Of a stretch of 64,000 nt of DNA, positions 14,458 through 50,797 are shown piece by piece. Position 1 is the first letter of the stretch, and each line of letters starts with the position of its first letter. Both the position numbers and the translations under genes were made by a program. The stretch is taken from assembly GCA_019636285.1 (NCBI GenBank), contig JAHBXV010000012.1:62001-126000 (forward strand), in the 5' to 3' direction. Source of the DNA: Planctomycetaceae bacterium. GTDB taxonomy: Bacteria > Planctomycetota > Planctomycetia > Planctomycetales > Planctomycetaceae. The notes below the pieces were generated by a model, which was not told the origin of the DNA, did not search any database, and saw nothing but the letters and a program-made list of their open reading frames with translations.

Positions 14458-14536
14458 GGATCCTCCGGTCACGAAACGGCCCAGGCGATGTTGGCGAAGC
14501 GACTGTCGGCGTCGCATTCGATTTCATTCGTAGCGT

Positions 14537-14607
14537 GTGCCACTGGCTCCGCCAGTGCATCTTGTTCTTTCGATCAACTGACAGCGCACTGGCAGAGCCA
14601 GTGGCAC
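14537..14607. repeat. Nested inverted repeat (CACTGGC...GCCAGTG arms)
   Basis: Arm 14537-14558 and arm 14586-14607 are inverted copies matching at 21 of 22 bases, 27 bases apart. Each arm is itself a small hairpin: stem CACTGGC, loop TCC or AGA, stem GCCAGTG. It sits between the LolC and LolD genes and has the same design as the element at 49885-49967. Confidence 0.85.
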
Positions 14608-14640
14608 TCGAACAGGAAGCCGCGACATAACACAGTCGGT

Positions 14641-28658: not shown

Positions 28659-28704
28659 CTCCCAAGCTCTGCCTGGGTGCAGCTTGGCCGGAGGCTCTGC
28701 CTCC
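28659..28704. repeat. CTCTGCC-hairpin repeat, left copy (inverted relative to 33 kb)
   Basis: Two small hairpins lie in a row: CCCAAGC/TCT/GCCTGGG (28661-28677, one mismatch) and GGAGGC/TCT/GCCTCC (28690-28704, perfect). The reverse complement of this arrangement occurs at 33010-33057. Between the two copies lie six minus-strand genes of accessory type. Confidence 0.75.
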
Positions 28705-33009: not shown

Positions 33010-33057
33010 GGAGGCAGAGCCTCCGGAAGAGGCGTTCCCAGGCGGAGCCCGGGAACG
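33010..33057. repeat. CAGAGCC-hairpin repeat, right copy
   Basis: Perfect hairpin GGAGGC/AGA/GCCTCC (33010-33024), then an imperfect one TTCCCAGGC/GGA/GCCCGGGAA (33035-33055). This is the inverted counterpart of the copy at 28659-28704. A single hairpin of the same kind (GAGGC/AGA/GCCTC) is at 34649-34661. Confidence 0.78.
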
Positions 33058-33068
33058 AGACAAGGCGA

Positions 33069-48583: not shown

Positions 48584-49287
48584 CTTGGGTCAACCTTTTG
48601 GCAAGGGGTATCGAAAAGAAGTTTCGGCGGTCAGTCCCGCAGCCGCGTGCGGCCAGTGAACGATCGCGCACGAGCACTATCGCACGAGCGACTTCCAACG
48701 CCAAGTGTCAACAGTGGCCGCGAATTCACCGTGCCCCGAGATCCCAGTCCCGATGGCGGGAATTGCCCCGTTTGATGGCCGTCATAGGCTGTCCTCGCCA
48801 TGCCGAATGGAGAAAAACGCTGGCTGGACGGAATTTCGACCTTGTGGTCGCAAGCGGGGGGTTCTGGCGGGGTCGCGAGTCTTCTTAACCTTCGTAAACC
48901 ATTTTCTTTACAAGGTTTGTGGAGTTCTCGGCAGTCTGGCCGCGCGAATTGGGACGGCGGAGTTTGCCCAAAGAGAATAATGTTGACCGTTTTTCGGGAC
49001 TGGCTACAATCGGCACACGCGGAAGTTTTGGTAAACTCCGCAACACGTGCAAACCTCGACTTCTCCGAAGAAATGTTCCCCAAGGGTTCGTTAGGGATGG
49101 CAGCCCTCGGTCCTCGCCGATTCTGCACCTTCCGCGGCAGCCTCTTGCTGACCGACGATTGGCTTTCCCTTTCCCACCTGCCAGGCATCTCGTCGGAAAT
49201 TCGAGACTCTCGTGAACGGACGTCCGAGAGGTTCCGAGTCGAGCCCGTTCTCTCGGGAACTGGCGGCAGCAAAGGATGGGATTGCCA
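48584..49287. other. 704-base divergent intergenic region
   Basis: Between tpx (minus) and the HTH-REC gene (plus). Several open frames exist on both strands, the longest a 163-codon plus-strand frame (48800-49291), but none has a ribosome-binding site, recognisable motif or coding-like composition. I see no RNA gene. It must contain the promoters of both flanking genes. Confidence 0.5.
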
Positions 49288-49869
49288 ATGAAAACCGTAT
49301 TCACGACGGGCGAAGCCGCCAAAATCTGCAAGGTCAGCCAACAGACCATCATTCGTTGTTTCGACTCGGGTCAGCTCCGTGGTTTTCGCGTTCCCGGTTC
49401 CCGGTTTCGCCGGATTCCCCGCGACATTCTGTACCGATTCATGAAAGAAAACGGCATCCCCACCGATGCCCTCGAAAGCGGTCGCCGGAAGGCGTTGGTG
49501 GTTGATGACGACGAGGAACTCGTCGAACTGATCCGCGACGCGCTGGAGCGGGACGGCCGGTTTGAGGTGCGCGTCGCCAACAACGGCTTCGATGCGGGGA
49601 TGATGGTCAAGGAATATCGTCCCGACATCATCGTCCTCGACATCATGCTGCCCGACATCAACGGCAAGGAAGTCTGCCAACGCGTCCGTAGCGATTCGTC
49701 GCTCGACGAAACTCGCATCATCTGCATTTCGGGGATGGTCGAGCAGGACAAGATCGCCGATCTGCGGGCCTCGGGGGCCGACGACTTCCTGCAGAAACCG
49801 TTCGAGGTCGACTCATTGATCGAGCGCATGTGCAAACTGCTCGATATGGAAGCCTCGGCCCGCGTTTAA
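49288..49869 (+). CDS. Response regulator with N-terminal HTH (excisionase-type) and C-terminal receiver
   Basis: ATG at 49288 (MKTVFTTGEAAKICKVSQQT). The first ~60 residues are an HTH_17/MerR-like DNA-binding domain (SQQTIIRCFDSGQLRGFRVPGSRFRRIPRDIL). The receiver follows at about 68-190: LVVDDDEELVELIRDAL, phosphorylated Asp in IIVLDIMLPDING, Ser in IICISGMVE, Lys in DDFLQKPFEVDS. All phosphorylation residues are kept. Domain order is the reverse of the usual receiver-first regulators. A soluble histidine kinase gene lies 181 bases downstream past a terminator and is the likely partner. 193 residues. Confidence 0.9.
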   Translation: MKTVFTTGEAAKICKVSQQTIIRCFDSGQLRGFRVPGSRFRRIPRDILYRFMKENGIPTDALESGRRKALVVDDDEELVELIRDALERDGRFEVRVANNGFDAGMMVKEYRPDIIVLDIMLPDINGKEVCQRVRSDSSLDETRIICISGMVEQDKIADLRASGADDFLQKPFEVDSLIERMCKLLDMEASARV

Positions 49870-49884
49870 TCTGTTGAATGTCCG

Positions 49885-49967
49885 CGTGTGCCACGGCTCT
49901 GCGAGCCGTGGTGTATTCGGTGAAAGATGCTGGAAAAATCGCACGGCTCGCAGAGCCGTGGCACACG
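49885..49967. repeat. Perfect 26-bp inverted repeat with palindromic arms
   Basis: Arms 49885-49910 and 49942-49967 are exact inverse complements with a 31-base spacer. Each arm is itself a hairpin: CACGGCTC, loop TGC or GCA, GAGCCGTG. Same plan as the element at 14537-14607. It lies after the stop of the HTH-REC gene and could also act as a terminator. Confidence 0.9.
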
Positions 49968-49998: not shown

Positions 49999-50030
49999 GG
50001 GCCGCCGAGCCAATCGGCGGCCCTTCGTTT
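49999..50030 (+). terminator. Rho-independent terminator after HTH-REC gene
   Basis: 10-bp stem GGGCCGCCGA/TCGGCGGCCC with loop GCCAA (49999-50023), followed by TTCGTTTT. It lies only 28 bases before the histidine-kinase start. Confidence 0.82.
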
Positions 50031-50050: not shown

Positions 50051-50797
50051 ATGAGCGAGCCGTCATCCTCTGCTGACAACCACCCAATAGACTGGTCTCC
50101 CGATCCGGACCGTCTGGAAGCCCTCGCGGAATTCGCGGCCGCCGCCGGTCACGAGATCAACAATCCCCTGGGAACCATCGTCGGCCGTGCGAGCCAGTTA
50201 CTGCGCGACGAACAGGATCCCGCCCGACGACAGATGCTGGCAATCATCGGGGCGCAGGCCCTGCGAGTGCGCGACATGATCGGCGACGTCATGCTGTTCG
50301 CCCGCCCCCCCGCGGCACATCCCCAGCGCCTTCATCTCAACGAGGAACTTGAACGCTGGCGGATGACGTGGCAAGCCGACGAACAAAGGGCCTCGACGCC
50401 CCTCGAAGTAAAATGTGAGGGAGAGCTCGTCCTCTGGGCCGATCCCGCACAGTTTGCTGTCATTCTCGCGGAACTGACACGCAACAGTCGCGAAGCGCTG
50501 CTTCCCGACGGTGGACCCATTCGCATCGAGGCAGTCCCCAGCGATTTCCCCGACCGGGTTCGCCTGAGCGTGATCGATCGCGGCCGTGGATTCACTGACG
50601 TCGAACGCTGCCATGCCTTCGACCCGTTTTATTCCGGTCGGCAGGCCGGGCGCGGACTCGGATTCGGCCTGTGCAAAGTGTGGCGGATTGCCCAAATGCA
50701 CAATGCAACGATTGTCGTGACTGGCAAAGCTGGCGAAGAGACGCGAATTGTGCTGGAATGGCCGATACGAGCGGCCGATTCCAGCTCTCCGGCGTGA
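50051..50797 (+). CDS. Soluble histidine kinase, 248 aa
   Basis: No transmembrane segment. Phosphoacceptor helix AEFAAAAGHEINNPLGTIVG with the phospho-His in GHEINNP, the HisKA form common in NtrB-like kinases. The ATPase part has an N-box at ELTRNSREALLPDG, G1 at VIDRGRGFT, F box at AFDPFYSG and G2 at GRGLGFGLCKVW. All are acceptable, though the N-box has Arg in place of the usual Asp. It is the likely kinase of the HTH-REC regulator upstream. A cytoplasmic signal is implied, but no PAS or GAF domain is present. Confidence 0.85.
   Translation: MSEPSSSADNHPIDWSPDPDRLEALAEFAAAAGHEINNPLGTIVGRASQLLRDEQDPARRQMLAIIGAQALRVRDMIGDVMLFARPPAAHPQRLHLNEELERWRMTWQADEQRASTPLEVKCEGELVLWADPAQFAVILAELTRNSREALLPDGGPIRIEAVPSDFPDRVRLSVIDRGRGFTDVERCHAFDPFYSGRQAGRGLGFGLCKVWRIAQMHNATIVVTGKAGEETRIVLEWPIRAADSSSPA

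Follow-up and report, generated by a model that had tools for sequence, protein, structure and literature searches.

A REPIN with a GTGC tag and its probable RAYT partner in a planctomycete genome

The regulator-kinase gap and its paired palindrome

The window, a stretch of 64,000 nucleotides, corresponds to positions 62001-126000 of one contig (C18) of a planctomycete genome of 6.37 Mb. Within it, a response regulator with an N-terminal helix-turn-helix domain and a sensor histidine kinase lie in the same direction, and the short gap between them holds two separate structures, namely a large inverted repeat, which begins 15 bases past the regulator's stop codon, and a smaller hairpin with a T-rich tail that resembles an intrinsic terminator (Table 1). 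The preliminary description of this locus reported a perfect 26-bp inverted repeat whose arms are themselves palindromes, and a repeat search of the window bears this out: the arms (49885-49910 and 49942-49967) are 26 nt long and 100% complementary, and each forms a hairpin of its own. The figure of 31 bases given in that description is the length of the spacer. Read from the outside inward, each arm consists of the tag GTGTGC followed by the hairpin CACGGCTC-TGC-GAGCCGTG, which has an 8-bp stem and a TGC loop. Folded as single-stranded DNA, the whole element reaches -37.7 kcal/mol (z -11.4; equalled by 0 of 200 shuffles) and a lone arm -8.8 kcal/mol; folded as RNA, the element reaches -63.8 kcal/mol (z -11.5). 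The element is a REPIN, that is, an inverted pair of REP palindromes, and belongs to what is termed here family B of this genome.

Table 1. Positions of the features discussed, in window coordinates (a point marks features given without strand).
Feature	Position	Strand	Basis
Family-A REPIN (hairpins 14541-14557 and 14587-14603)	14534-14610	.	
Response regulator with N-terminal helix-turn-helix domain	49276-49869	+	
Family-B REPIN, two inverted REPs with tags outward	49885-49967	.	26-nt arms, 100% complementary; family members; folds
Left REP, 5' tag GTGTGC (candidate guide GTGC at hairpin foot)	49886-49891	+	sequence; tag conservation
Left REP, hairpin CACGGCTC-TGC-GAGCCGTG	49892-49910	+	sequence; fold
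31-nt spacer	49911-49941	.	sequence; repeat search
Right REP, hairpin	49942-49960	-	sequence; repeat search
Right REP, tag GTGTGC	49961-49966	-	sequence; repeat search
Intrinsic-terminator-like hairpin with T-rich tail, separate, 3' of the REPIN	49999-50023	+	
Sensor histidine kinase	50051-50797	+	

A second element of the same plan, built on the hairpin CACTGGC-TCY-GCCAGTG, ranks as the window's strongest inverted pair (arms of 25 nt, 92% complementary, with 27 nt between them) and is a REPIN of another, larger family, A; the preliminary description had placed it at 14537-14607 with 22-bp arms and a 27-base spacer, close to the extent measured here. The hairpins at 28659, 33010 and 34649 that were listed there as similar (CAGAGCC/CTCTGCC) proved to be unrelated: they lack the tag and have only the core GGCTCYGCC in common, and GGAGGCAGAGCCTCC is no commoner than its reversed control in 2.4 Mb (11 against 12), so that they were ruled out as relatives of the families. 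Near 33035 (window 33010-33065) lie palindromes of the GTTCCCAGGCGGAGCCYGGGAAC type, which form a different small family with 7 copies in 2.4 Mb, against 0 for the reversed control; a RAYT was not found nearby.

Copy number, geometry and placement of the two families

Both families are dispersed throughout the genome. The pattern that they share, GTGCCACN{0,4}GCTCNGC, occurs at 258 places genome-wide, against 4 for the reversed pattern, and family A alone accounts for over 100 arms. Family B amounts to approximately 28 arms genome-wide, arranged as 12 pairs plus single copies, with a reversed control near zero; most of these arms are identical, 26 of them having no mismatch to the pattern. Statistics on family A were gathered from a sample of 2,415,438 bases (2.4 of the 6.37 Mb), which was read piecewise and includes the window, and in which 108 arms were found at no more than one mismatch, compared with none for the reversed control. 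The preliminary description had named a small number of copies with unrelated arms as the outcome that would speak against a repeat family; the arms of separate copies are clearly related.

As in described REPINs, the palindromes occur more often in inverted pairs than as singlets, and at a preferred spacing. In the 2.4-Mb sample, 104 of 147 family-A matches fall in pairs, and among neighbouring A arms no more than 150 bp apart the tags face outward in 50 of 52 cases, any other arrangement accounting for the remaining 2; all four neighbouring B pairs in the sample are likewise tag-outward. Exactly 30 nt separate the hairpins in 31 of the tag-outward A pairs (the mode), and nearly all fall between 25 and 32 nt, in keeping with the 25-35 bases anticipated for inverted pairs of short palindromes. 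Spacers in family B fall into two classes, 17-31 nt in most pairs and 83-99 nt in four. The four long-spacer REPINs (L194, L196, L198 and L215) resemble one another and differ from the short-spacer copies, and constitute a second subtype.

Once oriented, the A spacers show a common consensus that is asymmetric (orientation score 13.6, as opposed to 6.7 when turned round and 6.9 after shuffling), and the pairs thus appear to have spread as units. The tag is well conserved in family A (G 87%, T 64%, G 86%, T 83%, G 86%, C 86%), and a CTT motif is conserved at positions +4 to +6 after the A hairpins (C 70%, T 73%, T 72%); the window copy of family B is without CTT. Loop letters of paired A arms match no more often than by chance (22 of 46, P 0.73), so the idea that pairing between arms is kept by matched loop changes was rejected for this family: the loops of the two arms vary independently, which suggests that each REP, rather than the long hairpin, is probably what an enzyme reads, and the single long hairpin is under no visible selection in A.

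With respect to genes, the arms lie mostly downstream and avoid divergent promoters. When genes were called simply from codon usage, 39 of the 44 A pairs proved to be intergenic, with 4 called inside genes and 1 at a contig edge, whereas approximately 81% of random positions fall in genes. The median distance of A elements to a gene 3' end is 28 bp, and divergent gaps hold none of the 44 pairs, even though they make up 232 of the 1015 gaps of at least 70 bp. The elements are thus extragenic and present in many copies per genome, as REPINs are. Around 49 A elements there is no target-site duplication (mean 0.88, against 1.07 when shuffled), as expected for Y1 enzymes, and the duplication that characterises DDE-type MITEs is accordingly lacking.

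RAYT genes of this genome and of the Planctomycetota

The RAYT-like transposase that the preliminary description proposed to look for elsewhere in the genome does exist, as two intact genes, each flanked by one of the two REP families. The genome has nine Y1_Tnp matches. The one termed RAYT-B (C70; L010:1159-1788, minus strand) is immediately preceded by a B REP and followed by a full B REPIN, and RAYT-A (C92; L006:1135-1713, minus strand) lies between an A REP on its upstream side and an inverted A pair on its downstream side; across the nine loci, each family is found only at its own RAYT. Three B arms lie within 450 bp of RAYT-B, where simple arithmetic (28 arms in 6.37 Mb) predicts fewer than 0.01 for one given gene. 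Both proteins exceed the NCBIfam cut-off of 80 bits for REP-associated tyrosine transposases (NF047646), with 102.6 bits for RAYT-B and 88.4 bits for RAYT-A, and both genes have uninterrupted reading frames in which the HUH, W and Tyr motifs are preserved. The catalytic H88, H90 and Y168 are present (H-V-H at 88-90), as are W146/Q147 and N172-P173; together, the HUH motif, a catalytic Tyr in Y---NP and the conserved W are those of class 2 Y1 RAYTs (TnpA-REP). The sole PDB match is 4er8, a TnpA-REP (E 3.7e-5).

Further palindrome families, each at its own RAYT, accompany other RAYT loci of the genome (L002, L003, L004, L008 and L009), with 37 copies of TAACCCGAAGCGTCAGCGAGG, 46 of TAGCCGCGACCCAACGGGGAGCG, 50 of GGGTGGCACGCCCTGA and 6 of CCGCCTCCGCTGGAGGCGG in 2.4 Mb, and most of these other families are among the most frequent words in the sampled sequence. 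For the palindrome consensus CACAACCGGTTGTGCCT, with 36 copies in the 2.4-Mb sample, no adjoining RAYT was found; the enzyme may have been lost or may be encoded in the part of the genome that was not read.

The association extends beyond this genome. RAYT relatives were drawn both from genomes belonging to this family and class and from named contigs across the Planctomycetota. Both flanks were available at 102 loci, of which 70 have an inverted repeat of 14 nt or more spanning the gene and 63 have a tagged one. In control sequence 1 kb further out, an inverted repeat was found at 1 of 82 loci and a tagged one at none of the 82, and swapping flanks between loci gave at most 7 inverted repeats and 9 tagged ones. 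When no tag was demanded, the 5' foot of the flanking hairpins carried GTG[CG] in 44 of 48 cases, with 3 on the other strand, and GTAG in none of the 48; a search that required GTG[CG] counted 42 GTGC and 40 GTGG. The hairpins change with the enzymes, as mean identity over 16 nt of REP rises from 0.39 at 40-50% RAYT identity to 0.65 at 60-70% and 0.84 above 70% (Mantel r 0.44, the highest of 2000 permutations being 0.12; r 0.38 once near duplicates are removed), and the nearest relatives of RAYT-B, at 66%, have the same CACGGCTC hairpin. One Planctomicrobium RAYT (L221:158-697), 68% identical to RAYT-B and with a family-B REP beside it, has a stop codon within the matched frame and is possibly a decaying enzyme. 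Some planctomycete genomes (G013, G003 and G040) contain as many as 10 RAYT matches, and stop codons interrupt some of these, which suggests turnover.

The second base of the extended tag covaries with one residue of the enzyme. Among 75 non-redundant RAYTs, Phe occupies position 152 (L010 numbering) in 17 of 23 enzymes with GTGTG tags and in none of 52 with GGGTG, an association that gives a Fisher value of 3.4e-12 uncorrected for ancestry and is the best of 174 columns, the next being 1.7e-6; an ancestry-corrected test had 3 usable pairs. Out-of-sample loci point in the same direction with few cases (1 of 3 GTGTG against 0 of 19 GGGTG), for combined counts of 18 of 26 and 0 of 71. RAYT-B itself has Tyr at this position despite its GTGTG tag, so any such rule is one-way at best. 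The position sits in the WQ-GGG-[FY]-D loop and adjoins residues that align with the guide contacts Q95, position 100 and R104 of the E. coli enzyme (PMC8266576). Given that Phe occurs there only with GTGTG tags, a single residue may help to read the tag, which we offer as a lead. A residue for the last tag base (C or G) was also sought and set aside, the association being weak and confounded by ancestry. It is conceivable, and we suggest it only tentatively, that the Planctomycetota hold a large RAYT/REPIN lineage in which the tag has shifted from GTAG to GTGC/GTGG, has been extended upstream to G[GT]GTG[CG], and has repeatedly undergone natural switches of type.

Origin of the element and its place among known systems

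Taken together, these observations make it highly probable that the element at 49885 is a miniature non-autonomous mobile element that is copied or moved in trans by the HUH/Y1 enzyme RAYT-B. RAYT-B would recognise a single REP while the DNA is single-stranded, as it is on the lagging strand of a replication fork, for instance, through the hairpin and the tag at its foot; it would cut with its catalytic tyrosine, a chemistry suggested by homology, and would copy or move the REP pair as a unit through single-stranded DNA. The window copy would have landed in the short regulator-kinase gap, ahead of the regulator's terminator-like hairpin. Mobility of REPINs in this genome is read from sequence, and movement as a unit is indicated indirectly by the common spacer consensus and by empty sites: in 25 of 25 relatives that have a regulator 78-93% identical with the kinase close by, the regulator-kinase gap contains no A or B REP and no tagged palindrome, a comparison made between genera. 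Precedent comes from E. coli TnpA-REP, which binds single-stranded REPs and cuts them at CT on the 5' or 3' side of the hairpin in a GTAG-dependent manner, and from a Marinomonas enzyme whose cut site shifts in a predictable way once GTGG or GTAC replaces its tag (PMC8266576). Counting against the mechanism, the tag here is GTGC, whereas binding was measured for GTAG. By the published guide scheme, a GTGC tag would direct the enzyme to GC or GA rather than CT. The conserved CTT after the A hairpins is a possible cut site.

The position of the element, 15 bases after the regulator's stop codon and between codirectional genes, together with its RNA fold of -63.8 kcal/mol, could also be taken to mean that it serves this two-gene locus as a regulatory structure in RNA or DNA, with the hairpin stabilising or ending the regulator's messenger or tuning read-through to the kinase, and such effects are known for REPs. 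We consider this improbable, since none of the 25 relatives that have this gene pair carries the element, an identical hairpin stands beside many unrelated genes, and no Rfam family matches it at cut-off; the far weaker matches to microRNA models are a by-product of any long hairpin. The presence of a separate terminator-like hairpin downstream likewise tells against it, and led to the rejection of a plus-strand terminator as the main nature of the REPIN. That the element is a classical MITE, moved by a DDE transposase acting on terminal inverted repeats, would fit its shortness, inverted ends and many dispersed copies, but is very nearly untenable in view of the 49 A elements without target-site duplication, the tagged hairpin at each end and the Y1 protein encoded beside the matching ends.

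The alternative that deserves more weight, although we think it unlikely, is that the REPs are relics that spread long ago and that RAYT-B has since taken on a role for the host and no longer moves REPINs. RAYTs have been described as domesticated, single-copy genes (PMC8266576; PMC6006769), and family B, at approximately 28 arms, is small and may be old and quiet; on the other hand, nearly all B arms are identical (26 without a mismatch) and the catalytic residues are intact. RAYT-B, as the proposed mover of the B REPINs, is presumably still active.

By architecture and enzyme, the system is a REPIN/RAYT system (PMC3116915; PMC6006769), new in its tag. It resembles the REPINs of Pseudomonas fluorescens SBW25 (PMC3116915) and the BIMEs of E. 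coli, which are moved by RAYTs, in its intergenic, inverted REP pairs at fixed spacing, in having one REP family per RAYT with each RAYT beside its own REPs, and in singlets that appear to be remnants; it differs in carrying GTGC (GTGG in relatives) in place of GTAG, in the shorter spacing of its pairs and in its planctomycete host. With the GTAG-tagged REP superfamily and its RAYTs (PMC3733652; PMC6006769) it shares short hairpins that have a tetranucleotide at their 5' foot and an HUH-Y1 enzyme that bears both the WQ motif and Y-x-x-x-N-P, the signature of class 2, whereas the published tag GT[AG]G covers GTGG and not the GTGC of the window element. TIRYTs and TIRtrons (PMC3733652) likewise have a Y1 gene bounded by inverted repeats that are also dispersed as copies, although theirs are plain terminal repeats with GGGGWSAS rather than tagged REP hairpins. 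Class 3 Y1 proteins of Planctomycetes and Acidobacteria (PMC6006769) share the phylum and the many-copy hairpins flanking the gene, but have a CnGA foot and a Y----Q motif where GTG[CG] and Y---NP are found here. Members of IS200/IS605 share the Y1 chemistry and a guide tetranucleotide 5' of hairpins, but the RAYT genes here are not mobile multi-copy genes, the dispersed part being hairpin pairs only. In the non-subscription literature searched, no description of GTGC-tagged REPs was found.

To the few REP/RAYT systems that have been studied, mostly in Proteobacteria, these elements add a branch that spans a phylum and has a tag of its own. They also offer enzyme-repeat pairs whose tags and hairpins vary in concert, a natural series with which it becomes directly testable how single-strand enzymes choose their repeat and cut site; if residue 152 does read the tag, ready-made enzyme pairs with altered specificity would be at hand. 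Lastly, they account for a large share of the palindromes in such genomes, which could otherwise be read as gene regulation.
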